Below are positions 45,776 to 63,850 of a stretch of DNA of 64,000 nt, piece after piece; the stretch's first letter is position 1; the number at the start of each line of letters is the position of its first letter. The notes beneath the pieces were generated by a model, which ran no database searches, was not told where the DNA came from, and worked only from the letters and a program-made list of their open reading frames with translations. The DNA comes from Synechococcus sp. KORDI-52 (GTDB taxonomy: Bacteria > Cyanobacteriota > Cyanobacteriia > PCC-6307 > Cyanobiaceae), in contig NZ_CP006271.1 in NCBI RefSeq assembly GCF_000737595.1, forward strand, positions 1,240,001 through 1,304,000, read 5' to 3'. A program made the translations under genes and the position numbers.

Positions 45776-46066
45776 TTGCAGGCCAACAACATAGAATCCT
45801 GGACGGTTTTTAGTTCGACTTCAGTGGAGTTCACGTTGGTGATTCTCAGTGAGCAGGTTGGTTCCTATCCAACAATTAATTGGACGGAATGGAAAGATCG
45901 CAACCGAAAGCAGATGAAGAGCCAGGGCGATCTTTGGTCAATGGCTACACTTTCTGGGGCAACAATCTGGGACTGCTTGGACGCCAACCAGATCGACCGC
46001 TTGCATCTCGTGCAGTGGAAGCCAGCCGACGACACGATGTATCGGGTCAGCCTTCCTCGGCGCTGA
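45776..46066 (+). CDS. Uncertain small hypothetical protein (up to 96 aa)
   Basis: The frame opens at TTG 45776 with GTG alternatives at 45825 and 45837. The composition (several Trp, little repeat) is compatible with a folded protein, but no ribosome site or known domain supports it. Confidence 0.3.
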   Translation: MQANNIESWTVFSSTSVEFTLVILSEQVGSYPTINWTEWKDRNRKQMKSQGDLWSMATLSGATIWDCLDANQIDRLHLVQWKPADDTMYRVSLPRR

Positions 46067-46276
46067 AGCTTGCTTTGGCTTCGGTGTTGAGGGCCTTGCC
46101 CGTTCGCCAGGAGCCTTGAGACGCCGCGTAAAGATCCCTCGAACGGGTGATGTGCCAGGTCGCGGGACGGGCAAGACTTCTAGTCATCAGGCACGAGCCA
46201 AACAACCCATCCCACGCCAATATCACAGATCTATCGCGTTAAAGAGGGAAGTCAACTCGCCGGCGTATGTTCCGGG

Positions 46277-46567
46277 TTGGAGGCTGCGGGGAAGGGTTCT
46301 GCGGCTGGCTGGAGGCTTCTTTTTTTAGTGGGCGGCTTTTTTACCTTTTTCCCAATTGTTATTTACTTCGCCTTAGCTCTTGCGTGGCCCATGGCCAAAA
46401 CGAAAGAGATGGCTGCAGGCAAGGCAGGTGTGAACAGCGTGAATCAAATCTCTGAACTTCCGGGGTTGGAGGCAAATTTGATGAAGCTCGTTGAGATGAA
46501 AGAAAAGGGTCTGATTTCAGAGGTCGAGTACGCAAAGATGAGAAAAAAAGAGCTCGGAATCGATTGA
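46277..46567 (+). CDS. SHOCT-domain membrane protein
   Basis: From TTG 46277, the protein has one membrane segment (about 13-37) and a C-terminal SHOCT motif: LMKLVEMKEKGLISEVEYAKMRKKEL. SHOCT is a short oligomerisation domain often at the end of other proteins. The start could be earlier or later. Confidence 0.65.
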   Translation: MEAAGKGSAAGWRLLFLVGGFFTFFPIVIYFALALAWPMAKTKEMAAGKAGVNSVNQISELPGLEANLMKLVEMKEKGLISEVEYAKMRKKELGID

Positions 46568-46945
46568 TATTGTGAGGTTGTAGTGCCGGAAGCAAGGGGT
46601 ATGAAGTCTTCTCGATATCAATCAAGATAAATTGGCTGTAAGGGATGTTTCATTGATTGTTTCGTTATGGCGTGCCCATCAATCCTTCGACCGCTGCGAT
46701 GGTTTTTAACATTGATGAGAGACCTTATCGTTCACCCACTGAGCGATGGGGCTTGACGGGCTCCAGGCCTGGTGGAGGAGCCGGGCTCACGTTTCGAGGC
46801 TTTAGGACATGTGTCTGCCTGCAACGCCCATGAGCAACCCAGTCGCCAGCTTCATTGGCTGAAGAGGTTTGTTGAGTAAAAACCGTGGATTCGAGCTTCT
46901 TTGTTTTGTGGGGTCTACCAATGAGTGCAAAGCATTCGATGACAG
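46568..46945. other. Gene-free stretch before the MarC gene
   Basis: I see no frame with coding signals. A GC-rich, partly self-complementary part at about 46750-46800 (CTCCAGGCCTGGTGGAGGAG) could fold, but no terminator-like U run follows. Confidence 0.5.
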
Positions 46946-47572
46946 ATGTCTCTGTTGCATACCGCAGTTGGTGTGTTCACCATTGCCAATCCAATAGGAA
47001 ACCTGCCGATCTATCTCTCTTTCACCAACGGTAATCCTCGCCAGGATCGTGCGATTGCCCGCAGCGCAGCCTTCACATTCATCGTCGCCCTGCTGCTGTC
47101 CACATGGATTGGAAACAATCTTCTTGCGTTCTTCGGCATCAGCCGTGGGGCTTTTCAGATTGCCGGTGGCGTGATCGTGGTCTTGATTGGACTTTCGATG
47201 CTGCGTTCCAAGACGCCTCCAGAGCACCACGACCCGGAGTCAGTCGTTCGCGACCAGTCGTCATCTGTTAAGGGTGTCGTTCCTCTTGGGATTCCGCTTC
47301 TTGCTGGTCCGGGAACCTTAACCGTTGTGATTGCTGACCCAATGGCTGCAAGCCTGAGTGGTCGGCTGGGCATCAGCTTGGTGGTTCTGTTGCTCGGCTT
47401 GGTGGTGTATGTCGTCTTTGCGGCTGGAGATCGTATCGCCAGTCGTATCAGTTCATCCGCGTTGCAAGTGCTAACGAAGGTGATGGGATTGCTTTTGACC
47501 GCCATCGCCATTCAGATGTTGATTAACGGTCTTGTGTCAGTCTTCCCATCGCTGAGCCAAACAGCGGCGTGA
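46946..47572 (+). CDS. MarC family integral membrane protein
   Basis: The 208-residue protein has six hydrophobic segments and the MarC features TIANPIGNLPIYLSF at the first loop and GIPLLAGPGTLTVVI in the middle. MarC proteins were once linked to antibiotic resistance; their actual function is unsettled. ATG 46946 is the start. Confidence 0.88.
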   Translation: MSLLHTAVGVFTIANPIGNLPIYLSFTNGNPRQDRAIARSAAFTFIVALLLSTWIGNNLLAFFGISRGAFQIAGGVIVVLIGLSMLRSKTPPEHHDPESVVRDQSSSVKGVVPLGIPLLAGPGTLTVVIADPMAASLSGRLGISLVVLLLGLVVYVVFAAGDRIASRISSSALQVLTKVMGLLLTAIAIQMLINGLVSVFPSLSQTAA

Positions 47573-47797
47573 ATCTGTTCCACGATTGATTGAGGCAGCG
47601 TAGGCCCATCACAGAGTTCTCGATGGGTTGATGTGTTCTGCAACGGGAATGGCCATCGTCAACCGTCTGGAGATGGTGCTTCGGATGCATCCCCATTCAG
47701 ATGATTCTCATCGGATTATCCAGCCTCCTACATAAAGGGGCTCGCCAAACAAAGGCATATTACTGATAAGGCAAAAGCCTCACTTTGGATATGGGTT

Positions 47798-48412
47798 ATG
47801 CAATTTAAAGTTCAGGTGACGATGGGCCATCGTCAACGAGAATTAACCTTGAATGCGGAGAATGAGGCTGATGTCAGGAGGAAACTGAGATCACGTGGAT
47901 ATTCGGAGGCGACTTCTGTGATTGAACAGGTGGATGCTGATTGTCAGTCTCCAAAGCCAATTCAATCGTCTCGATTTTTACCAAGAACTCTACTGATTTG
48001 CCTTTTTCTGGCCCTTCCTGTTGCAGGAGTAACAGCGGCTCTATTCTCTGAGCCATTTGATCCTGATGTTTGTAAAACAGAGGCAGGGCGGTTGCGACAT
48101 CTTCAGCAATGCGTGTCTGTTCTCAATGATGATCAATATGCATGGAGCCATCGAGACTTGTCGCCTGACACGTGCAAACGTTATCTAGGGTCAATTCTGG
48201 GACATGATCCATCGATTATGAGAACGGTAAACTGGGATTCATCAATCGTTCGCATTGATTACACGCGACAGGATGATGGTAAAAAGTTTATGTATGAATG
48301 TTCTACGCTGGGAGATGAGATTATTTGGAGAGGAGTTGATATTTTCCGTTTGGGTGATGGTCCTGGTAGGTGGAGGTATGAGGACGCTAGATCAATTTCA
48401 AATTTTCAATGA
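47798..48412 (+). CDS. Hypothetical protein with one membrane helix (204 aa)
   Basis: The N-terminal 50 residues look like a small beta/alpha domain (QFKVQVTMGHRQRELTLNAE then ADVRRKLRSRGY). A single hydrophobic helix (about 64-82) follows, then an external or luminal part with four cysteines (CKTEAG, CVSVL, TCKRYL, ECSTLG). The order suggests a type II membrane protein. No family known to me. Confidence 0.6.
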   Translation: MQFKVQVTMGHRQRELTLNAENEADVRRKLRSRGYSEATSVIEQVDADCQSPKPIQSSRFLPRTLLICLFLALPVAGVTAALFSEPFDPDVCKTEAGRLRHLQQCVSVLNDDQYAWSHRDLSPDTCKRYLGSILGHDPSIMRTVNWDSSIVRIDYTRQDDGKKFMYECSTLGDEIIWRGVDIFRLGDGPGRWRYEDARSISNFQ

Positions 48413-48514
48413 AGCGTGCTGCTCTCGGTATCGGTTCATTCATCCTGCTGCCTGGCCCAGTCAATGCACAGAGCTAAGGGTGGATCAAGGAGCACCTGAG
48501 TTAGCGCCGGTTGA

Positions 48515-48616
48515 TCAGCTATTGGCCGGCTTTGTCAGCTTGTAGAGGTTCAAGGCAAAAAGGGCCATGCCGAAGCTGCCAAAAACGATGAGAAGGTCTT
48601 GGGTGTCGAATGCCAT
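48515..48616 (-). CDS. Candidate 33-residue membrane microprotein
   Basis: ATG 48614-48616 to TGA 48515 gives AFDTQDLLIVFGSFGMALFA plus LNLYKLTKPANS: one hydrophobic helix and a polar tail. No ribosome site was recognised. It resembles small photosynthetic membrane subunits in shape only. Confidence 0.35.
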   Translation of the reverse strand: MAFDTQDLLIVFGSFGMALFALNLYKLTKPANS

Positions 48617-48796
48617 GGGCGTAGTTGCATTTCTTTGTAAACAACTATAACGAAGCCTTGCTGCTCCGTCGTCGACCCATGCATTAAGGCCAATGGCGGT
48701 ACTGGTGGTTTGCCTTGCCCCTTGATAAGGCTCGAACGTGTGAAGTCGATTGGTTGGCATTTCGCCCATACTCATGGCCCAGAGCAAGATCTCCCC

Positions 48797-49321
48797 ATGG
48801 TGGTGCTTGGACGCAAAGCCATTCTTGAGGCGATTGACGATGGATTGATCGCGATTACTCCCTTCATCGCCGACCACGTTGGGCCTGCATCCGTGGATCT
48901 CACCCTCGCTTCTACCTTCCGGGTGTTCCGAAAGGTGCATGAAGTCATTGATGTCCGCGAGCACACCGACTACCGCGAATTCACTGACAAGCTTGAGATT
49001 CCGGATGGTCAACACATTCTGATCATGCCGGGGGAGACCGTCTTGGGAATCACCCGCGAGCGACTCAAGCTTGGCCCGGGCCTCTGCGGCTGGCTTGAGG
49101 GTCGCAGTCGTTTTGCTCGTCTAGGCCTGATGGTGCATATCAGTGCACCGTTTATGGGGCCGAGGATCGACAGTCAGCAGGTGCTTGAGATCAGTAATTT
49201 CGGTCCGGCACCCTTGGCGGTGGTGCCGGGAACGCCCATCTGTCAGTTCATTTTTCAGCGGATGGATGGTGCAGAGCACTACGAGGGCCGCTTCGCCGGA
49301 CAGAGCCAGAGCAGTTTTTAG
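48797..49321 (+). CDS. dcd: dCTP deaminase
   Basis: The product turns dCTP into dUTP, giving dUMP for thymidylate synthesis. The motif GRSRFARLGLMVHISAPF and, later, QVLEISNFGPAPLAVVPG, which holds the catalytic Glu, are clear. ATG 48797 gives 174 residues, a little shorter than E. coli Dcd. A frame extending to 48710 lacks features. Confidence 0.9.
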   Translation: MVVLGRKAILEAIDDGLIAITPFIADHVGPASVDLTLASTFRVFRKVHEVIDVREHTDYREFTDKLEIPDGQHILIMPGETVLGITRERLKLGPGLCGWLEGRSRFARLGLMVHISAPFMGPRIDSQQVLEISNFGPAPLAVVPGTPICQFIFQRMDGAEHYEGRFAGQSQSSF

Positions 49322-49697
49322 GGATGTGCTGAGGTGTCCCAGTTCGTCATTTGGGTTCCCTTGTTGAAGGGGAATCAAGGCTTTCAATGCTGGTGTTGAG
49401 CTGTTGGCTGCACTGCATCGGGCTTGCTGCATTCATTGGGGATGCGCACCGTCGGGATTGTTGCCGTGCATGATGCGGTCGATGTCATCCACGTGCTACT
49501 CAGCTTTCTTATGAGTCAGCCTGAGCAGCGTCGCTTCATGAATGTGGTGATTGGCCGGTCCAAGTCTTGATAGAACTTGTCTGCCGGTGCTCCCAGGTTG
49601 TGATCTTCGTCATTGCTCACGCTATTGGAGTGTGAGGTAGTAGCGGCTACTGCATGGCCTGCCATCCCTGTCATCCTCCCCTTAGCGGATCAAAGTC
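49322..49697. other. Intergenic stretch without a clear gene
   Basis: No frame over 50 codons with a start and convincing composition was seen. Several short inverted sequences are present but none with a clear terminator run. Confidence 0.5.
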
Positions 49698-49859
49698 ATG
49701 ACACTCGAGGAGCAATACATCACTTTGATGAATGCGGCTGGTCGCGTACCTGATGAGTGGTGTCGAGACAAGTTCGTTCAAGAAGCAGACAATGTGCTCA
49801 TGCACATCAAGAAGCAGAGTCTGAGCAACGAGCAGGATTTCAAATCTATGGCTGCCTAA
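49698..49859 (+). CDS. Small soluble hypothetical protein (53 aa)
   Basis: ATG 49698 to TAA gives MTLEEQYITLMNAAGRVPDE then charged, helical sequence to FKSMAA. The short helix pairs look like a small helical bundle. The spaced AGCGGATCAAAG upstream is a weak ribosome site. It is convergent with the ferredoxin gene. Confidence 0.5.
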   Translation: MTLEEQYITLMNAAGRVPDEWCRDKFVQEADNVLMHIKKQSLSNEQDFKSMAA

Positions 49860-49888
49860 AGCCGTTCTGCTGCAGGCCCAGTCGGTTG

Positions 49889-50179
49889 TCAGAGGTCCTC
49901 TTCCGCCTCACCCTTGATTTGGCAATCGCTTGTTGGATAGGCGACACATAGGAGGGCAAACCCCTGGGCGATTTGTTCATCGTCCAAGAAGCTCTGATCC
50001 GATTGATCAAGAGAACCAGTTGAAATTTTGCCCGCACAGGTGGAGCATGCACCGGCTCTGCAGGAATAGGGAAGATCAGCACCAGCTTCTTCTGCTGCAT
50101 CGAGGATGTATTGATCTGCAGCACACTGAAAGCTGGATGAACCCTCTGATGTGGTGATCGTGACTTGATAAGAGGTCAT
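49889..50179 (-). CDS. Plant-type [2Fe-2S] ferredoxin
   Basis: The 96-residue protein has the cluster ligands in [13 protein letters not shown] and LLCVAYP, with the loop between. It begins [12 protein letters not shown] and ends with acidic residues, typical of photosynthetic-type ferredoxins. It could serve electron transfer to FNR or other acceptors; a specialised isoform is possible because cyanobacteria carry several. ATG 50177-50179 is used. Confidence 0.9.
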
Positions 50180-50405
50180 TCGATTGAATTGACTTGAATC
50201 AATGCACTTATGAATACGTTGATTGAACACTGGTGCTGATGGTTTCAAGAAAGATTTCGGGATCGAAGTAGCAATTCATGCAAAATTGATATTGATGTCA
50301 CTGATCTCTGATCTGGTCGATCAAATCCGTGTCGCTACCACATCCAAACCATGCATCGCTACGGCCAAACCTCAACGATGCAAGTCGGTGCCATTGTGTT
50401 CTGAG

Positions 50406-50561
50406 TCAGCCCAGGGCGAAATCGACATCGATCGCTCCGAAGCCAATGGGTGCTGTTGTGATCAGGACCCAGGCAACCAATCACAGCCACGGCGATCTTG
50501 GGGCTTTCAAGGCTTCGTCGTGTTTTTCATCCCGTAGCGCAGCCTCTGTGATAGCTTCCAT
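50406..50561 (-). pseudogene. Membrane microprotein gene interrupted by an in-frame TGA
   Basis: From ATG 50559-50561 the frame gives MEAITEAALRDEKHDEALKA then PRSPWL and stops at TGA 50481-50483. Past the stop in the same frame, LVAWVLITTAPIGFGAIDVD then FALG runs to a second TGA at 50406. The joined product would be a charged lead plus one membrane helix. The helix start matches the intact 30-residue frame at 62574-62666 (WL-x-LVAWVL), which has CAG at the position of this TGA. A sequencing error, decay or readthrough could explain it. Confidence 0.6.
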
Positions 50562-50720
50562 CGTCACGACAGCAATAGTCTCAGTCTGAAGACGTTGCTT
50601 CAATCAAGGTCTGCCAAAAGGGGATGGGGCTCGGGCTCTCATCTGAACGGTCAGCCTCTCCAGCTCGGGGCGACGTTCAGACCTCGAGAACTCCTAATCT
50701 CCATCTCAAAGCTGTATGTG

Positions 50721-50742
50721 CCCTGCCACAGAAGTGGCAGGG
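50721..50742 (-). terminator. Hairpin downstream of the AbrB-type gene
   Basis: CCCTGCCAC pairs perfectly with GTGGCAGGG around a four-base loop (AGAA). It sits 34 bp beyond the AbrB stop on the minus strand. No U run follows on either strand, so it could be an mRNA-stabilising end or a Rho-independent-like site without strong termination. Confidence 0.5.
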
Positions 50743-50776
50743 CTTTGATGAAGCAGGTTTGGAGGCAACGTCCTCC

Positions 50777-51181
50777 TCACTCCTCAACGGCTTCAGCAGC
50801 TTCGCTGTGCTCTGCAGCCGCACCTGTGGGGATCAGGCGAATTGCTTTCTTTCCGAGTTTGATTTCAAACTCATCGCCGGCCTCCAGATTCAGCATCGCC
50901 GTATAGGCCTTGCCGATCAGCAGATTGCCATTGCCCTGCACTTTCGCGATGTAACTGAGCTTGCGTCCGCCCTTGCCGATGGCCGCTCCACCAGTGGTGA
51001 AGTTGATCCCCTTGGCTTCGAGTAGAGCCTCGTAGAAGGCGGTGAAATTCAGGCGCTCGCCGCCATCCTTCTTCTCAGATACATAGCCGCATGACCGCAC
51101 AAGGTCAGACTTGGAGACGTCACCAAGATCTTTCACCTTCGACAGAAGATCGCTGCCAGTGAGCATTGGATTGTTTCTCAT
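50777..51181 (-). CDS. AbrB-family (cyAbrB) transcriptional regulator
   Basis: The 134-residue protein has the cyanobacterial AbrB pattern: an N-terminal DLLSKVKDLGDVSKSDLVRSCGY, a middle LNFTAFYEALLEAKG, and a C-terminal SpoVT-AbrB-like DNA-binding part (LEAGDEFEIKLGKKAIRLIP). Such regulators control carbon/nitrogen balance genes. ATG 51179-51181 follows GGTGA; the next ATG (51166) is an alternative. Confidence 0.8.
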   Translation of the reverse strand: MRNNPMLTGSDLLSKVKDLGDVSKSDLVRSCGYVSEKKDGGERLNFTAFYEALLEAKGINFTTGGAAIGKGGRKLSYIAKVQGNGNLLIGKAYTAMLNLEAGDEFEIKLGKKAIRLIPTGAAAEHSEAAEAVEE

Positions 51182-51280
51182 CAGATCACCATTACATAGC
51201 TGTTTTCGTTGATACCTGTCAACAGTTAGTGGCAAATCAACGGACACTGGTCTTACGAGCAGCTCTGGCTTGATAAGTGC

Positions 51281-51481
51281 TTACCCGAGCAAAGCTGCTT
51301 CATCAGAGCGCTCAATGACCTGTTTCGGTGTCCCTCGAAGTGTCGTCCACGCCTCGTATGAATGCCCTGCATACTTGGGGCTTGAATGCTGATCTCGCGT
51401 CAGGGTTCTCGCCTCGTTCAGTTTTCCAGCAAGAGCGTGGCTGAAGAGGGTCTCTCGAGATCGACTCAGATGGTGGTTCAT
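51281..51481 (-). CDS. Uncertain small hypothetical protein (66 aa)
   Basis: Composition is polar and charged; no domain or membrane segment. An AAGAG precedes the ATG but too closely. Kept only because it sits in a stretch without other genes. Confidence 0.25.
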   Translation of the reverse strand: MNHHLSRSRETLFSHALAGKLNEARTLTRDQHSSPKYAGHSYEAWTTLRGTPKQVIERSDEAALLG

Positions 51482-51999
51482 CTCTTGTCTTGGTATTCCT
51501 GCACCGTGGCTATGTCACTTGATGTGATGTCTTGAGCTGGTTATCTCGCCATAGCCGTTGGCCTTTCGTACTCGTGGAGGCCAATGTTTTGACCTGAGGA
51601 GTTGACCATATCGTGTCTCTCTCCCATGGAGCCAACGGTTGGAGCAGAGGCGAGACAGCCACTCTATGGATCGATCATGATGTAATGGAAGAACATGGAG
51701 TTTTGTGTGATTGATTGACTGATCTTGAAGGCACTTTGTGAGTGAATCTGCCTGGACATCTCTGTAGATTTTTCTGGGCAAATAAAAAGTCTGGAAAAGA
51801 CGGCAAACCTCTTTTCTTGTCTGCAAGAAAGCCGACTCACCGAATTACTTGGATTTGCCTGACAGCTTGATGCATCTAAGGAAAAACTATTGCATGAGCA
51901 GGCCTTGGCCAGGTTCCGGCTCAGCCAGCAGTCAGAGGTGAATTCAGAGGTGAATTCTTCGCCTGACCCTGCACTCATGCACTGCAACGGATCGCTGTT
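51482..51999. other. Upstream region of the giant repeat gene
   Basis: No gene was seen in this 518-bp stretch. It carries inverted bits (GAGCCAACGGTTGG near 51632) and a 12-bp tandem duplication just before the giant gene. Several AT-rich patches could hold promoter elements, but none can be named. Confidence 0.5.
51932..51957. repeat. Two tandem 12-bp repeats upstream of the giant gene
   Basis: TCAGAGGTGAAT occurs at 51932-51943 and again at 51944-51955, followed by TC. It ends 42 bp before the ATG and could be a protein-binding site or a slippage product in the leader. Confidence 0.85.
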
Positions 52000-54900
52000 A
52001 TGCCCTCAACTGCAAACGCCGAGAACCATGCCGCCAACGCGGTCGATGGCTCTCCTCAAGAGGTTCAGGGCGACCAAACACTGATCGCGAACGCACCTGA
52101 AAACGGCGTGAACACCGTCAGCGCGGATGCCGACAACACAAACGGCCCCGCCAGTGCCACAGCAGACAGTGGAGAATCTGCTGCTGTGATCGACTCCCCG
52201 GTCACTGCTGGAGGCAATGCCACTCTCGTTGCCCGTGAACTTTTGAGCGTTACCGCCGATGCGGAAACGACCACCGGAGATGCCACAGCAGACGCCCATA
52301 ACGATTCAAACGGAAGGCCAGCTCCCAGAGCGCGAACCGGTGGCCTGATTGACAGCGATCAAGCCATTGGTGGCGACTATGGCCAGACCATTGTCGTTGA
52401 CAACAGCACCGTTGCTGTGGCCGGCACCGAGACAGGTAATGCTGATGCCGCTGCCGACGAGTTCAGCACATTCGGCATCCGCAACAGCACCATTGATGTT
52501 GAGGGCGACTACAACAGCACGGTTGATAACGACAACACCATCAGCGCCAGTGCTTCAACAACCACTCATAACGCTACCGCTGAGAGCGAAAGCACTGAGC
52601 GCACCGGTGTTGGTATTAGTAGGGATGTTTTTGATGTTGAAGGCGATGCTGATCTCGCCGTCACCGTAGGTACGGAAGACGACCCCAACACGATGAGCGC
52701 ATCCGCCATTGTGGTGGGTGATGGTAACGCCGCTGCATTTGTAGGCGCTACATATAACTACGGTATTACCGCTACTGGGGGAGTGACACCTGATGGCGAT
52801 GTCGTGCTTGATGATGTGGAATCCATCCTTGGTGGTGCATCGATTGCTGTCTCTGGTAATGCCAACATCACGGCTGAAGTTGACAATGTTTACAGCTCAG
52901 TAGCATCTACCTCAACCGGTGATGCGAGTGCCACAACCAATACTTCTGACAGGTTTGGCATTGAGGGTGCCATCGGTTCTGGCGAAACCATTGGCATCGA
53001 TGCAGCTGTGATTGAAGTTGGTGGCGATGCCGCCATCCTTGAAGGCACTGTTGATAATGAAAGCGGAACAACAGCCGATGCCAAAACAGGTGATGCAACA
53101 GCCGTTGATTCCAGTGGCTTGCGCGCGGGTATCCGTGCCAACACGCTCGATGTGGCAGGCACCTCGATCATCACAGGCTCCGTTGTCAATGACCAAGCAG
53201 CCATTGCATCGTCTGTCACTGAAGCTGATGGTGGTGATGGTGCAAAAGCCAGCGTCACGGCGGGCGACGATAGGGATGAGGCTATTGACGCCGATATCAC
53301 CGGCGTTGATGCAGACAACCTCCATCTTGGAGGTGTCTCAACGATCGCCGGTTCTGTTGCACTTGGCTTAACCGCTCAGGCCGATATCACCACCGGTGGT
53401 GCTGAATCTCTTGGTGAGCTCGGTGGAGATGTAACCGGTGTGCTCAATTCAAGCCATGCTGAAGCAGGCGCTGATCTCACTGTTGATGCCGATGCGTCAG
53501 TTGTTGTTGAGTCCAGTGCCAGCAACACGAAGGGTTCCGCCGCTGGCGTAACAAGTACCGCTGTTCAAGCTGGATCTGTGATTGGCTTGGATCAATCCAC
53601 CAGCGAAGAAGGTGAATTTAGGGTTAATGGTTATTTGGATGTCGATGGAGATGTATTCGTAGCACTGGATTCAAGTGCGAAGAGTGTTGATGATGATTCG
53701 ATATCAAGAGCTCGTTCTGTTGGTGAAGGGTCTGAAAATAGCAGTCAAGTCAAGGGTGTTGTTCTTGATGCTGAATCTCCAATAGATCTGAATGGTGGGG
53801 CTTCCATTGTTGGCGATGCGTTGGCTGAATTATCAGCAGTCGCTGAGTCCAAAGCAGGTTCTTCAACTGCTGAATCTCTTATTAATACTGGTAAAATTGT
53901 TGGTTTTACGGGCGTCAATGTTCAGCAGAATTTAGACGTCGAAGCGGATGTGCTGCTTGATGGCTCGGCTGATCTGTCACTGCATGCAAATGCATTCACC
54001 GTTGGTGGCTCAACGGAAGCATTGGCCACGTCTGGTGATTTCGTTCAAGGTGTAGAAGTTAAAGGATCGGCAGCACTGGTCGATGTATCCGGTGATGCTG
54101 TTATCGATGGCGAAGCTGACGTGGTGCTATCTGCTGAAGCAGCAGGTACTGGCGACTCATCCGCTGATCGCGCGACAGCTGATGCTGAACTTATTGGAGG
54201 ATTAGGGAGCAACTTCAGTTCAGTCGGTGGTGGTTCTGGACTGAATGTTGATGGAAATCTGGATGCCGATGGTGATGTACAAGCTTTATTGAGCAGTGTC
54301 GCGCGAATCAAAACCGGTAGCGCCCGTGCAGATTCAGACCTTACGCGTAAGGCCGTAGGCCTTGTCTTTGGTGGTCGCCAATCATCTGGGGACTCTGCCA
54401 CAGTTGGAAAAGACGCCAACCTTGCAGGTCGTGCGGATATATCTCTTGTTTCAGTTGCGTCTTCGACCACTGGTGATGCAGAGGCTTCCTCAGATGCAGA
54501 AGGTAAGAATGCTGCCAAGCCTGGTCTGGTTCAATCGGTCGATGTCGCAGATCTTTCTGTTAATGCTGATGCGGTAATTACCGCTGATACTGATCTTTTT
54601 ATTCAGTCTGATGCATCAACTGTCACTGGTGATAGCGCTGCTGATTCAACCACTGACGAAATCAACGGACTCAATATCGAGAATCAATTAACTTCGGGCG
54701 GACAGTCAACCCTCAAGGCTGATGTTGATGCCACCTTGGCGGCCTCTGCCGGCACCACCAGCGGTGATGCCGATGCGGGCGTTCAAGGGGCAGAGGGGGT
54801 CAGGGCAATTGAATCCAATGACATTGATGCTGCTGGCGCTTTCTCTGCCAGTGGCACCATCGATTTGGTCGGCACCGCCTACGCCGAGACTGTCAACCCA

Positions 54901-57900
54901 GATGGCGACAACTCAGGATCTACAGCTGAAGTCAGCTTTGTGAATGAGATTCAAGCCGTTGAACTCGATCATACCGATGTTGAAGCTAATGCTGAAATTG
55001 TTGGTGTAGCCGATGTTGATTTAGAGGCATCGGCCATCAGTGTGAACACCAACGCCAATGCCGATACCCGGCAACGTTTCGACGAGGATCTTGAGGACCA
55101 ACTTGAAGGTGTTGATCTTGATGATCTCCTTGATGCAGAAGGCAACATATCGGTTGAAGGTCGTGCTGAACTCTCAGCAACTGCCATTGCCAAGACAACC
55201 CACGGAGAAGCAGATGCAGCGGCTGAGTCGGGGGGATTGAACGGTATCGATTATGAGACTGTTCAGGGGGCTGATGTTGTACTTGATGGTGATGCCGTTC
55301 TCGATCAAACGGCATCAGCCATTACAACTGAAGGCCTTGCAAAGGCAACGACATTTCAACAGACTCAGGTCGCTGGTGTGAATCAGCGCGGTGGAGAAGG
55401 ATTGGCCACGGAGGCTTCTGGCTTCGTGGGCGTTGACGGTGCAGCCGCCAGCATTGGCTTAGCCAATGCTGGGACCATTCATGGCAATGCTGAAGCCAGC
55501 TTTCAAGCTGATGATGAGGTCGTTGGCGCAGAATTCTCTGATGCTTTGAAGAGTTTCGGTGACATATCTGTCACTGGTAATGCTGCGCTTGATGACACTG
55601 CATTGGCAACGAGTGGCTCGGGTTCTGCTAATGCTGATGTAGAGGCTTTTGGTGCTGAGGGCGTTGAATTTGATGCCGATGTTACTTCTGGTGGAGATGT
55701 CAGCCTCAGCGGTAGTGGTTCGGCCGTAACTCGGGCCGTCGCATCCAGTACTGGTGATCAGTCATCAGATCAAGCTCATGCGAAGAGCAGCCTTACTGAG
55801 GTCATCGGCATCCATCAAGGTGGCATCACCATCAATAGCGACACGGTACCGAACAATGCCGACCGCGTTAGTATCCTTGGTACGTTTGATGGACACATAG
55901 TCTTCGAAATTCAGGACGACAGAGCTAGTGAAGGGATTGAAGCCCCCAGTAGTCAACAGCTTGTTTTGTCAAAGAGGACAGCCAGACCGATCACTGACGA
56001 AGTTATTGCTGATCAGAAATTAATTGTTTCTCCCCCATTCGATTTCCCTCTTTCGTCAGGAGCGGCCAACGATCTCAGCCCCGATATACAGACTTCGGAC
56101 AGTGTAAATACATTTGCCTTTCTTTCTCTGCAGGACGTTGAAAACTTTGTTGCCGATAAGGGTAAATCTTTTATTTATACACGAAACACCGATACCGGTG
56201 AAGTGGCAATGGGTCAACCGACCCGTATAAGACTCAATGCACAAAAACTAGATAATCTGTCTCCTTTGACGTCTGATCAGATTGAACGTGTATTCTCTGG
56301 CGCCTTGATCACTATCAAGGGTGATTTTGGTGCTACTGGAGATGCCTCTGCTCTTCAATCTGCCCATGCAGACATCAGCACCGGCGATGCAACTGCCGAG
56401 ATCATTGCTGATGTCGTTGTTGGTGCTCATTTTGACGACAATCTGATTGGTGCCGGTTCAGACGGGATCGATGTGGCTGGCGATGCCAAGGTCACCGGTG
56501 ATGCTGTGGTCAACAATGACGCCACTGCATCGAGCACCACTGGCGATGCCACAGCCAATGAATCTGTTGATCAAACCACGGGTCTGATTGATGACCTCAA
56601 TGTTGGTGGTGATGCCGATGTTGCAGGCACAGCCAGCGTTGTTGGATCCGCATCGGCAACCACCGTCACCGGTACCGCTGATGCAGACAGCGGTACTTAC
56701 GACAGTGACGTCACGGGTTACGACGTTCAGGGCCGCGTTGATGTTGGTGGTGATGCAGCGCTCACCGGTGGCGCCTCCAGCAGCAACACCTCGTTTGCTG
56801 CAGCCACCACCGGCGGTGCTGATGCAACGTCGGTGCAAGGTGAAGTCAACGGCATCCTGATCGACAGGGAATCCCACTTCCAAGCACATCCCGACATTGA
56901 TGTCGCCGGTGATGCCGAGGTCATCGCCACCGCTGCCAGCAACTCCTTCGCAGAAGCTGCCACAACGACAGGCGATGCAACAGCTCAGGCCGACAATCTT
57001 GCCACCGTCGGTTTTGAAATTGGTGACAGTGCTGATGAACCCGCTCTCTCCGTCGCCGGCGACAGCGTCCTGCGCGTTCAGGCCACCAATGTCGGCACCG
57101 CCGATGCATCAGCCACCACGAACAATGCAACAGCTGAGGTCAATGACGAGGGCTCGAATGATGTCACCGGCATCAACAGTGACGACAACACACTGGATCT
57201 GAATGGTGATGCTGATGTCAATGCACTGGCTCGGAGCACCCAAACGGCCAACGCATCAACCACCACTGGTGATGCAAGAGCAAAGACCGCTTTCCGTGAC
57301 GACGTTGTTGGTAGCGATGACACCAGTTACGACATTGAAGGCAATGCAACGCAGTTCGACAGCCGCGGTGAACTGACGGCCAGCTCAGGCGCCAACGCCG
57401 TCACCGGTGATGCTGTTGCCAAAGCGGGGATTCGATCAGAAGCCATTGGTTTCGAGAATGGATCTGTTGATATTGCAGGCAATGCCACCGGTGAGTTTGG
57501 CCTGACCGACGACGGCATTCTCAGCTACGGCAACTCCGTCCTCACCACGGAAGCTGAAACGGGAACCGGCGATGCAAGCGCTGAATCCACAAGCGTCAGG
57601 GTCAAAGGCGCTGAGGGCATGGACCTCGACGTCGCTGGCAATGTGGACGGCCCTTGGGGCGCCCGTGCCCTCGCGGTTGGCGATTTCAGCGCCAGCGCCC
57701 AAAGCGTCAACGGCGAGACAACGGAAGCTGTTCTTGAAGCTGAGGCCAGAGGCTTTGATGCTGACGGCGAAAGCACCTCCGGTGACATCGACATCCTGGG
57801 CAACGGCAACGTCACCCAGATCGCCCAGATGGTCGCCGACGCTGAGGCGATGACCATTGGCGACAGCACGAATGACGGGGTCCAGGCCAGCGTCAATCTT

Positions 57901-58779
57901 GATGCCATTGGCGGTGACTTCTCCGAGACCGATGGAGATATCACCATCAACGGTGACGGCAACGCGCTCGCCGATGGCGTCAACCAAGGTTCTGCCTTCG
58001 CCTATGGAGTTCACTCAATCGCTTTTGCCAGCAGCAACGTCAACTCGGAGGGCTTCAAGCTCGGCGACAACAACATCGAAATTGGTGGTGCGGGTGATGT
58101 GAGCGGCCGTGGTTTCATCGGCGACTGGGATCAATACGGTGACGCCTACCTCATTGATGACGCATTCAGCGTCAGCGCTGAAACCACCACGGGCAATGCA
58201 TATGCAGCCGCCGGTGGTGGAACAGGCTCGGCCACGTTCACCGCTATCGGTATTGGTGGTTTTGGTGGAGCAGACGGGGGAGATGCGATGGTCACCGCCG
58301 GACCCTCCGGTGGAGACATCACGGGTACCGCCAATGCTGCCGCTGATCTCTCAGCCACCACCACCACGGGTATCGCTGTCTCTAACAGCATGGCTGAACT
58401 CTTTGGTATTCAGAAAGTGAACCTGCAAGGCGGCCTTGATGGTGAAAGCACCATCGATGGCCAAGCTCAAGGCATCTTCAACACCAGTTCCAGCAGTGTG
58501 AATGGTGTTGCCCAGGCCACATCAGACGTCACTGGCATCGGCATGGATGGTCTTGTTAGCAATGCAATGGTCAACGGCAACATCAATGCCGTGGCGGACA
58601 TCAGCAACACCGTGCTGGCCTCCACCGTCACCGGCAGTGCCATTGCCACCGCCACCGGCAATGCCGTTGGCATCCAGGACTACACCATCACGATGGAAGG
58701 TGATGGTGTCATCACGGCCAATGCCAGCACCAACATCGTTGCTGTGGCATCCACCGTGACGACTCTAGATGATGGTTAA
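52000..58779 (+). CDS. Giant acidic repeat protein (2259 aa)
   Basis: This gene encodes a 2259-residue protein made of about 35 units of roughly 60-70 residues. Each unit pairs a segment like [LI]-x-[VI]-x-G-[DN]-A-x-[VI] with a turn T-T-G-D-A-x-A and a Ser/Ala/Asp-rich link; regular hydrophobic positions suggest a beta-solenoid or stacked strands. It is cysteine-free, strongly acidic and has only two Trp. No signal peptide or RTX nonapeptide is seen. Residues about 1276-1443 are non-repetitive. The repeats recall giant surface proteins such as SwmB of motile marine Synechococcus, but the family match is not established. ATG 52000 is the start; no secretion gene is next to it. Confidence 0.75.
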   Translation: MPSTANAENHAANAVDGSPQEVQGDQTLIANAPENGVNTVSADADNTNGPASATADSGESAAVIDSPVTAGGNATLVARELLSVTADAETTTGDATADAHNDSNGRPAPRARTGGLIDSDQAIGGDYGQTIVVDNSTVAVAGTETGNADAAADEFSTFGIRNSTIDVEGDYNSTVDNDNTISASASTTTHNATAESESTERTGVGISRDVFDVEGDADLAVTVGTEDDPNTMSASAIVVGDGNAAAFVGATYNYGITATGGVTPDGDVVLDDVESILGGASIAVSGNANITAEVDNVYSSVASTSTGDASATTNTSDRFGIEGAIGSGETIGIDAAVIEVGGDAAILEGTVDNESGTTADAKTGDATAVDSSGLRAGIRANTLDVAGTSIITGSVVNDQAAIASSVTEADGGDGAKASVTAGDDRDEAIDADITGVDADNLHLGGVSTIAGSVALGLTAQADITTGGAESLGELGGDVTGVLNSSHAEAGADLTVDADASVVVESSASNTKGSAAGVTSTAVQAGSVIGLDQSTSEEGEFRVNGYLDVDGDVFVALDSSAKSVDDDSISRARSVGEGSENSSQVKGVVLDAESPIDLNGGASIVGDALAELSAVAESKAGSSTAESLINTGKIVGFTGVNVQQNLDVEADVLLDGSADLSLHANAFTVGGSTEALATSGDFVQGVEVKGSAALVDVSGDAVIDGEADVVLSAEAAGTGDSSADRATADAELIGGLGSNFSSVGGGSGLNVDGNLDADGDVQALLSSVARIKTGSARADSDLTRKAVGLVFGGRQSSGDSATVGKDANLAGRADISLVSVASSTTGDAEASSDAEGKNAAKPGLVQSVDVADLSVNADAVITADTDLFIQSDASTVTGDSAADSTTDEINGLNIENQLTSGGQSTLKADVDATLAASAGTTSGDADAGVQGAEGVRAIESNDIDAAGAFSASGTIDLVGTAYAETVNPDGDNSGSTAEVSFVNEIQAVELDHTDVEANAEIVGVADVDLEASAISVNTNANADTRQRFDEDLEDQLEGVDLDDLLDAEGNISVEGRAELSATAIAKTTHGEADAAAESGGLNGIDYETVQGADVVLDGDAVLDQTASAITTEGLAKATTFQQTQVAGVNQRGGEGLATEASGFVGVDGAAASIGLANAGTIHGNAEASFQADDEVVGAEFSDALKSFGDISVTGNAALDDTALATSGSGSANADVEAFGAEGVEFDADVTSGGDVSLSGSGSAVTRAVASSTGDQSSDQAHAKSSLTEVIGIHQGGITINSDTVPNNADRVSILGTFDGHIVFEIQDDRASEGIEAPSSQQLVLSKRTARPITDEVIADQKLIVSPPFDFPLSSGAANDLSPDIQTSDSVNTFAFLSLQDVENFVADKGKSFIYTRNTDTGEVAMGQPTRIRLNAQKLDNLSPLTSDQIERVFSGALITIKGDFGATGDASALQSAHADISTGDATAEIIADVVVGAHFDDNLIGAGSDGIDVAGDAKVTGDAVVNNDATASSTTGDATANESVDQTTGLIDDLNVGGDADVAGTASVVGSASATTVTGTADADSGTYDSDVTGYDVQGRVDVGGDAALTGGASSSNTSFAAATTGGADATSVQGEVNGILIDRESHFQAHPDIDVAGDAEVIATAASNSFAEAATTTGDATAQADNLATVGFEIGDSADEPALSVAGDSVLRVQATNVGTADASATTNNATAEVNDEGSNDVTGINSDDNTLDLNGDADVNALARSTQTANASTTTGDARAKTAFRDDVVGSDDTSYDIEGNATQFDSRGELTASSGANAVTGDAVAKAGIRSEAIGFENGSVDIAGNATGEFGLTDDGILSYGNSVLTTEAETGTGDASAESTSVRVKGAEGMDLDVAGNVDGPWGARALAVGDFSASAQSVNGETTEAVLEAEARGFDADGESTSGDIDILGNGNVTQIAQMVADAEAMTIGDSTNDGVQASVNLDAIGGDFSETDGDITINGDGNALADGVNQGSAFAYGVHSIAFASSNVNSEGFKLGDNNIEIGGAGDVSGRGFIGDWDQYGDAYLIDDAFSVSAETTTGNAYAAAGGGTGSATFTAIGIGGFGGADGGDAMVTAGPSGGDITGTANAAADLSATTTTGIAVSNSMAELFGIQKVNLQGGLDGESTIDGQAQGIFNTSSSSVNGVAQATSDVTGIGMDGLVSNAMVNGNINAVADISNTVLASTVTGSAIATATGNAVGIQDYTITMEGDGVITANASTNIVAVASTVTTLDDG

Positions 58780-58931
58780 CAAGCAGGCTTACACAACACA
58801 GATTAATCCTTCTGGTCGCCCCATGGCTTCATCGTGCCGACAGGGCTTCGACGTACTGAACAATTCCATTGATGGACTTTGATATGGAAATTGTCCAAAG
58901 CCATTGGCCACATTGGCCCACTTGATCTCAA

Positions 58932-59144
58932 TCATCCCGTCCATTCGCGTGAGGCGTAGATGCAAGCAAGGATGAGGGTGGGGATGAAAACGAGTGTTCC
59001 CATGAGAGGTGCCGCAAGCATCAGGCCAAAGGAGATGCCCAGAGACCAGGCGAGTGCTGAGCGCACATTTTTTCTCGAGGCTTGACGCTTCTTGATGCTT
59101 TCTCTTCTGGAGCCACCCCGCATCAGCCTGTTGAATTCACTCAT
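58932..59144 (-). CDS. Small two-helix membrane protein (70 aa)
   Basis: A basic N-terminus (RRESIKKRQASRKN) precedes two hydrophobic helices (about 28-45 and 50-65). Its start overlaps the upstream gene's stop (ATGA), so the two are probably cotranslated. No family recognised. Confidence 0.55.
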   Translation of the reverse strand: MSEFNRLMRGGSRRESIKKRQASRKNVRSALAWSLGISFGLMLAAPLMGTLVFIPTLILACIYASREWTG

Positions 59145-59395
59145 GGAAGAGGTCGCCGAAAGTTGTAGTAATGGAACGTAGTTCCGTTGGCTTGCACGTC
59201 TTGATTGACAGCGTGCGTCACCAGCTCCCAGCCATCTTTCCCTAGTGCCTCAAACATCTCCGGCAGGGTTGGCACCTCCTTGCTTGAGCCCCATCCCCGT
59301 ACTCGCTCGCCATCGATATCGAGAAGATTGATCTCCTGCGTGATTCCACGCCCTTTGTAATCAAGGCGGATGCTTTTGTACTGCCACTGGCGCAT
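59141..59395 (-). CDS. Small DUF4177-like protein (84 aa)
   Basis: From ATG 59393-59395 the product reads WQYKSIRLDYKGRGITQEIN, then LGKDGWELVTHAVNQ and a final FHYYNFRRP. The Lys/Gly-Trp-Glu-Leu/Val pattern resembles DUF4177. A longer frame reaches 59551 but its extra N-terminus has no features. It overlaps the two-helix gene by four bases. Confidence 0.6.
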   Translation of the reverse strand: MRQWQYKSIRLDYKGRGITQEINLLDIDGERVRGWGSSKEVPTLPEMFEALGKDGWELVTHAVNQDVQANGTTFHYYNFRRPLP

Positions 59396-59576
59396 TCGCA
59401 GTGATGCGACTGTCGAAGTGGTAGCTGCACGGTTCAGAGATCGCTGCATTTTTGACATCTGGAGTGCAGTGCAACTCACGGGACGTCCTAAATGCGGAGG
59501 CCAGGCAAGCCTTTTGCCTGTTCTTTGACGCGTCGCCTCTTGGTAAGCCAACCGTCTTGGTCACCACCATGCTGGG

Positions 59577-60068
59577 GTGATCCCCCGTCGACGATTGATG
59601 CAACTGTCTCTCGGAGCCTCCCTCATCCTGCTGTTTCTTCCGGCATCAGGTTTTGCGCATCCAGTGATTCCCCAGCACGCGTCGACCGATGTCATCCCCG
59701 CCGCAGAGCATCAGGCCCCACCTGGGCTGGCGCCGCATCAGACACGTGATGTGTCCACCAAGGATCTCGGTGCTATTGCCCTTTCCCAGGAGTTCAGATC
59801 GCTGAACGACAGGGTGTTCCGAGCGAGGCTGATCACGATTGAACCTGGTGGATCGGTGGCCTGGCATGAACATCGACAACGCCCCGGGGTGGCGTATCTT
59901 CTCAGCGGTTCACTGGTGGAGATCCGTGACGACGGGCAAGGGCCAAGGAGGATTCTTCGCCGGCAGGGGGATGCCGTGTTTGAGCAAACAGGAGTTCGAC
60001 ATGGTTGGACCAACACATCAGCGCTGCCTGCTACAGCTCTGGTCGTGGATGTGATTCCAATGCCGTGA
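59577..60068 (+). CDS. Secreted cupin-domain protein
   Basis: A signal-like helix (about 8-27, ending GFA-HP) precedes a cupin: RLITIEPGGSVAWHEHRQRPGVAYLLSG gives motif 1 with its histidines and Glu-like site, and DAVFEQTGVRHGWTN gives motif 2. It may bind a metal and a small ligand in the periplasm. GTG 59577 is the start; ATG 59598 is possible. Confidence 0.75.
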   Translation: MIPRRRLMQLSLGASLILLFLPASGFAHPVIPQHASTDVIPAAEHQAPPGLAPHQTRDVSTKDLGAIALSQEFRSLNDRVFRARLITIEPGGSVAWHEHRQRPGVAYLLSGSLVEIRDDGQGPRRILRRQGDAVFEQTGVRHGWTNTSALPATALVVDVIPMP

Positions 60069-60150
60069 ACCCTTCGATCGCTTCCCCTCCTGGTGCTGAG
60101 CCAGAACCTGAACGACATGGCTCGGAACAAGTGACTGGAGACAAATCTGC

Positions 60151-60558
60151 GTGATCAGAACTGTTGCCTTTCTTCTTTTGATGTTTGGACCTGCTCACGC
60201 CGGGCCCAGAGTGACAATCGCCTCCTGCCAGGACGGGGAGACCTGTACAAGTACAACAGGTGAATCGATCAGGATTGCCTGTATTGATGTGCCTGAAATG
60301 AAAGAACAACCTCGGCTGCGACCCACGTCAATGCAAGCTGTCTTGCTTCCTAACAACCGTGCCATTCGTGCAATCGATCATTTAAGCCAATACGTTGTCG
60401 GGAAACAGGTTTTCATCCAACGCATGGCGATCGACCGCAATGGTCGAACTGTGGCCGAGCTCTATGTTGATGACATCAATGTGGGGCAGGACCTCGTGAG
60501 ACGTGGTCACGCCGACATCGATCGGAATCATGCCGGATCATGTGTCTGGACCCGATGA
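60151..60558 (+). CDS. Secreted staphylococcal-nuclease-like protein
   Basis: The 135-residue protein has a short signal peptide (ending HAGP) and an SNase-like fold: SIRIACIDVPEM matches the family's first Asp-Pro-Glu region, though the usual Arg is replaced, and DRNGRTVAELYVDDINVGQDL supplies a later Arg and structural strands. Four cysteines suggest disulfides. It may be a nuclease or inactive relative. The start is GTG 60151. Confidence 0.7.
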   Translation: MIRTVAFLLLMFGPAHAGPRVTIASCQDGETCTSTTGESIRIACIDVPEMKEQPRLRPTSMQAVLLPNNRAIRAIDHLSQYVVGKQVFIQRMAIDRNGRTVAELYVDDINVGQDLVRRGHADIDRNHAGSCVWTR

Positions 60559-60583
60559 TCCTCGCCGTTTCACGGCAATTGAG

Positions 60584-61048
60584 ATGGCCCGTATGCGCTC
60601 TTTCCTCAGCAGCCCACTCCAAACAGCTTTAGCTGCACTTCTTTCAATGGGTTTAGCTCAATCTCTTCATTTGCCAGACCCATATTGGGCACCGATTTCC
60701 GCCATCGTCTGCTCATTGGATGCTTTCGAAGGTGTAGTTGCAACAGCTCGTCGCCGACTTTTTGGGACTCTTCTCGGTGTTCTTCTGGCGGGATTGCAAG
60801 TTAGTTTTACGGATTACAACCTCATCAACTATGGGATTGCAATTGTTTTGCTGGGCCTGCTCTGTACTGCTGCAAAGCTGCATCCGAGCTCACTTCGATT
60901 TGGTGCGATCGCCCTGACGGTCGTTGTCAGTGATCCTGATCACACTGACGTCTGGTTCACAGCTGGAGCACGGTTTGTTGATGTCGCGCTCGGTATAGCA
61001 GTTGCTCTCTTTGTGGCGAGAGTGTGGCCCACAGCAAGGCATCAATGA
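60584..61048 (+). CDS. FUSC/aromatic acid exporter-like membrane protein
   Basis: The 154-residue protein has four hydrophobic segments and the FUSC-type start PDPYWAPISAIVCS followed by RRRLFGTLLGVLLAG. Full exporters have two such halves plus a cytoplasmic domain, so this is a short form. ATG 60584 is used; ATG 60593 is possible. Confidence 0.7.
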   Translation: MARMRSFLSSPLQTALAALLSMGLAQSLHLPDPYWAPISAIVCSLDAFEGVVATARRRLFGTLLGVLLAGLQVSFTDYNLINYGIAIVLLGLLCTAAKLHPSSLRFGAIALTVVVSDPDHTDVWFTAGARFVDVALGIAVALFVARVWPTARHQ

Positions 61049-61408
61049 GTCAATGCTCTGGTGGATCTTTGAGTGGGCTGTTCGCGTGTTGACGGGCTGC
61101 CTCGGAACCAGGCTGTGTTGTGAGATCTTCCAAAGAGATGGATGGCGCGTTGATGGGCACGTTGAACCTCAGCCTCGCGAGGTGCCCTTGACAGATCAAG
61201 TGCTGCCGAATCGCCATGGGGTATTGACGTCTCTTTTATGCCCCTCTCCTTTGACGAGCCGCTGTTCCAGCCCAGAGTCCATCTTCACGACGATGGCAAG
61301 TCGCTGGGGATCGCAAGGTTGCTGGGTTCAGCTCAACAGCTGACCGGAGAGTGTTGGCGTCGCCTTGATCCCAGATTCTGGGTTGGTATAAAGAAGCCGG
61401 TGCAGACC

Positions 61409-61436
61409 AAAAAACCGCCCCCCTTGGAGAGCGGTT
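61409..61436 (-). terminator. Intrinsic terminator, minus strand
   Basis: On the minus strand AACCGC pairs with GCGGTT (61413-61418 with 61431-61436), extended by wobble pairs, and is followed by a run of six U. No annotated gene lies just upstream on this strand. Confidence 0.75.
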
Positions 61437-61641
61437 CTTCGATGCCGTAGTAACCCCCATCACCCGGCCATCTGCACCAGATCTTGATGCGATGGAAGAA
61501 CAATACCCGTGACACGCCAGATGTGGTGGCCCGCAAGAGTCACTTAAGACTGTGATGTATTTGCGTAACGAATGGCTCTCAGTCGACTCCTGCGCTGCAT
61601 TTAGTGCCTGCTAAGGCTATTCTTAAAAACCCCATCACCCG

Positions 61642-61665
61642 GCCCGCTCCAGTAGCGGGCTTTTT
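61642..61665 (+). terminator. Intrinsic terminator, plus strand
   Basis: GCCCGCT (61642-61648) pairs with AGCGGGC (61654-61660) around a five-base loop, followed by five T. Confidence 0.85.
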
Positions 61666-61718
61666 CGTGCCAAAGCGCTAGATGTGGTGCATTGTGTCGT
61701 GTTGGCAGCAGGTGATCA

Positions 61719-61952
61719 TCAGCTTTGGGTGCGCGTGAATTTTTTTCTCTTGACGACGCAACCAGCAACTCCGCAGATCACTTCGTAGGTCTCGTCGCTC
61801 AGTTCGCTGAGGCTGGGTGGATCAATGGATGCCAGGCGCTTGCCAATCCTGCGAGCAGCAGTTAGCCATTGAATCGTCATCTGCGTCGTGGCGGTTCTTT
61901 CAGTCTGCGCGTTTTTGATGCATCGGACATCAGCCCAAAGGCTCATTGCCAT
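61719..61952 (-). CDS. Small hypothetical protein (77 aa)
   Basis: The product has two cysteines near its end (EVICGVAGCVVKRKK) and a central helical, basic part. No membrane segment or known domain. The C-terminal CGVAGC could bind metal or form a disulfide, but this is a guess from two residues. Confidence 0.4.
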   Translation of the reverse strand: MAMSLWADVRCIKNAQTERTATTQMTIQWLTAARRIGKRLASIDPPSLSELSDETYEVICGVAGCVVKRKKFTRTQS

Positions 61953-62573
61953 GGGGTCGCCTGATCACAGCCGTGTTGAGCTTGCCAGCCTGATCAAAAG
62001 AAAGGGGTAGGACACCACTCCTACCCTCCAGCGCACGGTTCTCTGCTTCCGTGCACGCTTGATTCTGTATCTCAGCGCTACAAAAGCAACCTGTTTGTTG
62101 GATCTTGCACGATCTCCGCAAGCTCATTCCCCCTGGTCTGTCCGGTCAACGCATTATTTGGGCCATGAGCAGTTGGATCCTGGCGGTCTGTTGGATGTTC
62201 GTTGAGTGATTGATTCGCCGGCTGATGAAGGTTTGGTGTGATGCTTCTGCTGGAGCTCAGCTCCTCTTCTGCTACGTCAACCAAGGCAGTTGGCGTGGAA
62301 CACTCACATGATCAAGACAGTCCAAGTGTTCGTTATCGAGCTGCCATGAAACCAAGGCTGCTCTCGTGATCCTGACAAGTCATGCCATTAAAATCCTGCA
62401 TGGTGCTCCTGGCGGGACACGTTATGGGTTGGGCATGCTGTCATTCTTTGATCACGATCGATTTGTTGAAGTCTCTGAAATCATCTCCAGATTTGAGGTG
62501 GATAGCGATTGCTGGGCCATCCACACTATTTGCGAATTGTTGACAGCTGTCTGTCAACCGCCAGCTGACAACA
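61953..62573. other. Gene-poor stretch with a minus-strand hairpin
   Basis: No strong gene. A polar minus-strand frame (62078-62284, 68 codons, no ribosome site) is the only candidate and is weak. The stem GGGTAGGA/TCCTACCC (62005-62012 with 62019-62026) followed by a T-rich run on the minus strand looks like a terminator of that transcript. Confidence 0.45.
62005..62026 (-). terminator. Probable terminator, minus strand
   Basis: A perfect eight-base-pair stem with a six-base loop; on the minus strand it is followed by CTTTCTTTT, a U-rich but broken run. Confidence 0.6.
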
Positions 62574-62666
62574 TCAAAAAACTCCTGTTGCACTCAGGCA
62601 AATCAGAGTGGTGGCGAGCAGGACCCAGGCAACCAGCTGAAGCCACTGCGTTAGGGGCGTTCCCAT
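62574..62666 (-). CDS. Candidate 30-residue membrane microprotein
   Basis: ATG 62664-62666 to TGA gives MGTPLTQWLQLVAWVLLATT then LICLSATGVF, one hydrophobic helix. It begins three bases after the stop of the upstream 96-residue frame (62670), a tight spacing that suggests coupled translation. A second, interrupted copy of the helix start is at 50406-50561. Confidence 0.5.
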   Translation of the reverse strand: MGTPLTQWLQLVAWVLLATTLICLSATGVF

Positions 62667-62669
62667 CGT

Positions 62670-62960
62670 TCAATTGAGTGGGTCGTCCCAAAGCGGTGGC
62701 TCATCAAATTCTTCCAAGAGGGAGTTGGCTTCGAGATCCTTACCCATAAGAAGCAATCTCATAATCCTGTCCCAGACGAAACGGGTCAAGTGTTCGCGCT
62801 CGATTCCCTGATGCCCGATTTCGAACTTGATTGGAGGAACATCGCCAGCGTCATCGTGGAACCGTGTAATAACTGACACGAGGTGGATGGCAGTGGTTCT
62901 TGTGTCGTAACTCCTTTTGCTTGTGAGAAGAAGTATCAACGCACCCCTTTCGATCTGCAC
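62670..62960 (-). CDS. Hypothetical protein (96 aa) upstream of the microprotein
   Basis: The product begins with a short hydrophobic stretch (GALILLLTSKRS), has a mixed central part with several His and Asp, and ends with an acidic tail (LLEEFDEPPLWDDPLN). No family is recognised. Its stop is three bases before the microprotein start. Confidence 0.5.
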   Translation of the reverse strand: MQIERGALILLLTSKRSYDTRTTAIHLVSVITRFHDDAGDVPPIKFEIGHQGIEREHLTRFVWDRIMRLLLMGKDLEANSLLEEFDEPPLWDDPLN

Positions 62961-63008
62961 GTTGTCAGCGCTGGCTTGGTGGCAGCCGACGTGCTTCTGC
63001 TCTCGCTC

Positions 63009-63278
63009 TTAGCGCTTGAACACGCCGTTGCAGTCCCCCGGGGCAGGTGTCACAAAGCAGTGACCCTCCGGTGACCAGTACCCCAGGGCAGGAAATGCAA
63101 GGCCTTGGGCCCTGGCTTCGGCATTGACGGCATCAACGCCTTGAGCCTGGATGAGCACGTTTCCCTCGCCATCAACGAGGTCGAGGAAATCGTTTTCTTC
63201 GATCTCCGCTGTGGGCATGGCTTGGCCTTGGACAGGTACAAGTGCCATCACACAGGCGATCAGGACAAAACGAAGCAT
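63009..63278 (-). CDS. Secreted hypothetical protein (89 aa)
   Basis: The N-terminal segment (LRFVLIACVMALVPVQGQA) is a signal peptide. The mature part has an acidic first half and ends HCFVTPAPGDCNGVFKR with two cysteines. No family recognised. It follows the L,D-transpeptidase gene on the same strand by 25 bp. Confidence 0.6.
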   Translation of the reverse strand: MLRFVLIACVMALVPVQGQAMPTAEIEENDFLDLVDGEGNVLIQAQGVDAVNAEARAQGLAFPALGYWSPEGHCFVTPAPGDCNGVFKR

Positions 63279-63303
63279 TGGAGCTCAGAGCGAAAACAAT
63301 GGA

Positions 63304-63765
63304 TCAGTTGCTGGTGACGAGCACCGGTGTGCCGACCTTGATGCGGTTGTACACCTGAATCACATCGCTGTTCAGCATCCGAATGCAGCCCAGGCTGACG
63401 GCGGCCCGCAATTTCACCCAGTTCGGCCAGGCCGTGCCATGGATGGCGTATTCGCCGGTGCCGATTTGCACATAAGCCACGTAACGCACTCCCACAGGGT
63501 TTTTCGGCCCTGGTGCAATAACTTTGCCTTTCTTGTGATACGTCGGCTGAGGATCCATTTTGGTCACCGCATATGTGCCCGGCGGCGTCGGAGATTCCGG
63601 TGCACCGATGGCCACGGGGTACTTACCGATCACCTTGCCGTCGTCCAGGAGGGTGAGATATCTCGTCTTGAGGCTGATCTCGATCGAAGTTTCGGCTTGC
63701 GCTGGAACCGCGGACATGGCCCCTAGGCCCAACGCTGCCGTCAAGAGGATTGAACGAGGCTGCAT
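63304..63765 (-). CDS. L,D-transpeptidase (YkuD domain)
   Basis: The 153-residue protein has a signal peptide (PRSILLTAALGLGAMSAVPAQA-E) and a YkuD domain. The catalytic site is His109 in AIHGTAWPNW and Cys127 in SLGCIRM, with the Arg after it. Such enzymes cross-link peptidoglycan or attach proteins to it. ATG 63763-63765 gives a normal exported form; the frame runs further upstream to 63999 but without features. Confidence 0.9.
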   Translation of the reverse strand: MQPRSILLTAALGLGAMSAVPAQAETSIEISLKTRYLTLLDDGKVIGKYPVAIGAPESPTPPGTYAVTKMDPQPTYHKKGKVIAPGPKNPVGVRYVAYVQIGTGEYAIHGTAWPNWVKLRAAVSLGCIRMLNSDVIQVYNRIKVGTPVLVTSN

Positions 63766-63850
63766 GGGCGTGTGCAACAGGCGACCGCAGGCATTTTGAC
63801 CCATTCGAAAGGGGCTAGCGTCAACCCGTTGCTTGGCCGGAGCCTGAACC

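Follow-up and report, generated by a model that had tools for sequence, protein, structure and literature searches.

A probable pseudogene of a microprotein gene pair next to a ferredoxin gene in Synechococcus sp. KORDI-52

Cyanobacteria possess small membrane proteins built of a single helix, for example minor subunits of the photosystems or of the cytochrome b6f complex. The microprotein discussed here is like them in its length of about 30 residues, its one hydrophobic helix and its strong conservation, and differs from them in that no PDB sequence matches it at E up to 1 and its strong matches are confined to one genus. The second system to be compared is the ordinary bacterial pseudogene of a duplicated gene, which has lost its start and stops, contains an internal stop and shows raised non-synonymous divergence, the genome retaining an intact copy at another place. 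The frame described below shares all of these features and differs in nothing essential, its parent being a microprotein gene without a Pfam or NCBIfam family (no match at E up to 0.1).

We analysed a window of 64,000 nucleotides, positions 1240001-1304000 of the single-contig genome (2.57 Mb). At its minus-strand positions 50561-50406 lies a frame interrupted by one TGA, for which pseudogene, sequencing error and stop-codon readthrough had all been offered as options. With a probability of roughly 0.93 we consider it an ordinary, fairly old pseudogene of a duplicated pair, which consists of a 96-codon gene and the microprotein gene. Homology beyond chance and disabling changes, two marks of a pseudogene, are both found in it.

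The intact gene pair

62574..62666, minus strand: intact gene of the 30-residue membrane microprotein, recognised from the searches and from pS and pN of the intact copies
62670..62960, minus strand: 96-codon gene directly upstream, which shares the frame and is parted from the microprotein ATG by one stop and one codon

The intact microprotein gene (62666-62574) encodes MGTPLTQWLQLVAWVLLATTLICLSATGVF. Strong matches to it (87-90 nt, 93-100% identity) were found in 13 of the 34 genomes of the genus that were searched, its own included, while among 300 genomes sampled from the family there were just two matches beyond the genus, both weak (E 0.033 and 0.037) and both containing stops. Averaged over the 66 pairs that 12 intact genes form, pS is 0.403 and pN 0.016, so the protein sequence is kept nearly constant although the silent sites vary. 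The thirteenth gene, from genome G027, was left out of these pairs since it carries a TGA of its own (L034 1501-1590, which is G027:C1:95479-95568, minus strand), where Trp14 is changed from TGG to TGA in an otherwise intact gene; it differs little otherwise from the gene of G028, and this in-frame TGA looks truly young.

The 96-codon gene and the microprotein gene share a frame in 13/13 copies, with one stop and one or two codons between them, an arrangement that is likely to reflect translational coupling. Both genes are conserved within the genus and both are without a family model, a search of Pfam and NCBIfam with the 96-codon gene being likewise negative. Phage records contain no match to the microprotein, and the start of its sequence was not found in the literature. 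Those paralogues of the 96-codon gene elsewhere that were examined have no microprotein gene behind them.

The remnant and its in-frame TGA

50424..50560, minus strand: decayed leftover of the junction between the two genes (end of the 96-codon gene plus microprotein), from local DNA alignments
50481..50483, minus strand: in-frame TGA, opposite CAG (Gln10) in the intact microprotein gene
50508..50510, minus strand: TTG, aligned with the microprotein ATG start of the other copies
50561..50689, minus strand: perhaps more of the 96-codon gene, a weak indication that requires gaps, from DNA alignment to part of the 13 homologous segments

The minus strand from 50561 to 50406 reads 26 codons (MEAITEAALRDEKHDEALKAPRSPWL), a TGA, 24 codons (LVAWVLITTAPIGFGAIDVDFALG) and a second TGA, the sole internal stop being the TGA at 50483-50481. 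Searched through the 34 genus genomes, the microprotein ranks 50504-50433 as the second-best match in its own genome (E 0.0097), and in the reverse direction the frame read through its TGA recovers the intact pair, at E 9.4e-4 in its own genome and at E 4.5e-5 in that of G030. Against 300 genomes of the family the same frame matches, besides itself, the pairs of the genus, that of G030 best, and the weaker ones from other genera seem to be due to chance. At the DNA level 50776-50330 scored above all of 300 dinucleotide shuffles with each of the 13 gene-pair segments (13/13), the local alignments spanning 50560-50432 with its own intact copy and 50546-50424 with G030. Beyond 50561 the alignment extends to 50689 (G026, G012, G023, G028, G027), 50666 (G002, G004) or 50639 (G022), and no extension is clear for the other five of the 13 segments. 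In two trees the remnant falls next to G030 and G022, but the support is weak (0.315 and 0.660) and we give this placement no weight.

The first-pass annotation described a microprotein paralog whose two halves flank the TGA. The TGA is where it was said to be; the halves are of a different nature. The best matches of the read-through frame start inside the 96-codon gene, cross its stop and enter the microprotein, the codons before the TTG at 50510 aligning without gaps with the last codons of the 96-codon gene. Because both these matches and the DNA alignment run across the gene junction, the supposed first half consists mostly of the end of the 96-codon gene, and ahead of the TGA no more than about nine codons, from the TTG at 50510, belong to the microprotein.

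The remnant has GAA for the stop of the upstream gene and TTG for the microprotein ATG, and it has lost the original end stop. The codon opposite the TGA is CAG in the intact copy, as had been noticed before, and equally in 13/13 homologues, its own genome's included, so that all three bases differ. Neither a single sequencing error nor a single recent nonsense mutation can produce such a three-base difference from a codon present in 13/13 homologues. That a truly intact gene was misread or misassembled here has practically negligible probability: nothing beyond a general possibility of error speaks for it, while one wrong base would not suffice for three substitutions in one codon, an altered start and two lost stops, identity to its own intact copy is down to 77/129 positions, and the assembly, in one contig, reaches 99.97% completeness. 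The idea of an error at one base is thus excluded as the whole story.

The decay had also been supposed to be very young, which the divergence contradicts. Over 24 codons the remnant has pN 0.30-0.34 and pS 0.39-0.68 against the 13 homologues, compared with the pN of 0.016 among intact copies, although the remnant is known from a single copy only, the core of which has changed less. A comparison with relatives brings up a TGA in the same gene in G027, but at a different codon (Trp14), which makes it an independent event.

The better-kept core lies directly behind the TGA. In codons 11-20, the ten that follow the TGA, pN is 0.14 to the intact copy of the same genome and to G030 and 0.19 to G022, whereas it is 0.37-0.38 in the nine codons ahead of the TGA and 0.36-0.45 in the seven after the core (codons 21-27). 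The core contains a run of 17 bases identical to its own intact copy, and a run that long arose in only 58 of 20,000 column shuffles, for a stretch that was chosen after having been seen. Its preservation may be due to a short gene conversion, to residual constraint on the helix or to this after-the-fact choice. It fits the pseudogene less well, and we have counted it against that reading.

The same core is one reason to consider that the part behind the TGA lives on as a separate mini-gene, restarted at the TTG that follows the TGA directly and giving a membrane peptide of 24 residues. Its first ten codons are indeed the best kept (pN 0.14 to the intact copy), but the following seven are not, and the helix has gained proline, glycine and acidic residues. 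The clean hydrophobic helix attributed to this part is accordingly there in a weakened state, with a best 15-residue Kyte-Doolittle mean of 1.78 as against 2.33 in the intact copy. Moreover, this ferredoxin-side frame is known from its own genome alone; no second copy appeared in the 34 genus genomes searched with the intact protein or in the 300 family genomes searched with the read-through frame. We regard a live mini-gene as very unlikely.

Programmed readthrough of the stop in a working copy deserves hardly any credence. The frame is open on either side of the TGA, as readthrough would require; the part ahead of the TGA, however, has no start of its own and is fused to the decayed tail of another gene, and the stop does not behave as a conserved signal, the homologues having CAG in its place. 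Non-synonymous divergence is high on both sides, with the core as the one exception, so that the two-sided coding constraint expected of readthrough is not seen and the readthrough option finds no support. A readthrough of another kind, at the intercistronic stop of the intact pair, would if it occurred a little give a membrane-anchored 96-residue protein, and the remnant would be the relic of a copy in which this fusion had been made permanent, with the stop as GAA, before the copy died. We give this idea only a tiny chance. The junction homology, the lost start and stops, the raised non-synonymous divergence and the position between the ferredoxin gene and the variable stretch all support the pseudogene.

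Gene order and the 12.2-kb stretch

49889..50179, minus strand: 2Fe-2S ferredoxin gene (PF00111, E 3.3e-22), by synteny the neighbour of the microprotein gene in relatives
50313..62568, no strand assigned: stretch that parts the ferredoxin gene from the microprotein gene here, from comparison with relatives

Fourteen stretches from relatives were compared with 44-64 kb of the window. The order dCTP-deaminase-like gene, ferredoxin, microprotein, 96-codon gene, all in the same orientation, occurs in 10 of the 12 other genomes that have the microprotein, with a gap between ferredoxin and microprotein of 37-52 nt in nine of them and of 918 nt in G014. For the remaining two genomes, G030 and G022, the 16 kb that were fetched lack a ferredoxin match, and the ferredoxin-bearing genomes G020 and G024 have no microprotein match. 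In KORDI-52 about 12.2 kb lie between the two genes, with the remnant at the ferredoxin end and the intact pair at the other. On one side the intact pair adjoins the neighbours known from relatives; on the other the ferredoxin gene is still next to the remnant. This arrangement fits what a duplicated pair bordering inserted or rearranged DNA would leave behind.

Besides the remnant, the gap contains a gene of an AbrB-like regulator and cupin, nuclease-like and FUSC-like frames. It also holds an open frame of 2259 codons (52000-58779, plus strand), repetitive, acidic and rich in Ala, Asp and Thr, which has no Pfam or NCBIfam match and is perhaps a giant surface protein. Pieces of 61311-62121 turn up again, in G014 between ferredoxin and microprotein and in G030 close to the corresponding locus, and some of them are inverted; since parts of this region are found near the same place in two relatives, more than one step was probably needed to insert the 12.2-kb stretch. 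The intact copy has a 3' flank resembling those of G022 (score 50.0, best of 200 shuffles 28.0) and G030 (40.5 versus 35.0). The 3' flank of the remnant bears no clear likeness to the microprotein-ferredoxin spacers of relatives, so the exact left border is not fixed. Neither a phage record matching the DNA of 50300-50700 nor an Rfam family at gathering scores over 46000-64000 was found, and no tRNA gene lies near the borders of the stretch, the one tRNA of the window being at 27.5 kb.

Just upstream of the ferredoxin gene there is a short open frame (50208-50279, minus strand), with likenesses (MTCYIDPEVFLE...) in several relatives; the version in G028 has an internal stop.

Origin and significance

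We propose that one copy of the pair would have remained with the ferredoxin gene as other DNA, about 12.2 kb of it, came to separate that gene from the intact pair. The duplication itself may have come about by recombination at the gene pair, for instance by integration of a circle or of donor DNA that carried a pair of its own. The remnant would then have decayed without purifying selection, its start codon, both stop codons and codon 10 becoming altered, while the function was presumably carried by the intact pair at 62.6-63.0 kb; a product from the remnant is not to be expected.

The pseudogene itself matters little, apart from the fact that a false lead for readthrough is removed. It does illustrate that a genus-restricted membrane protein of 30 residues without a family model is under strong selection, can undergo duplication and loss, and lies at the edge of a variable region in marine Synechococcus.
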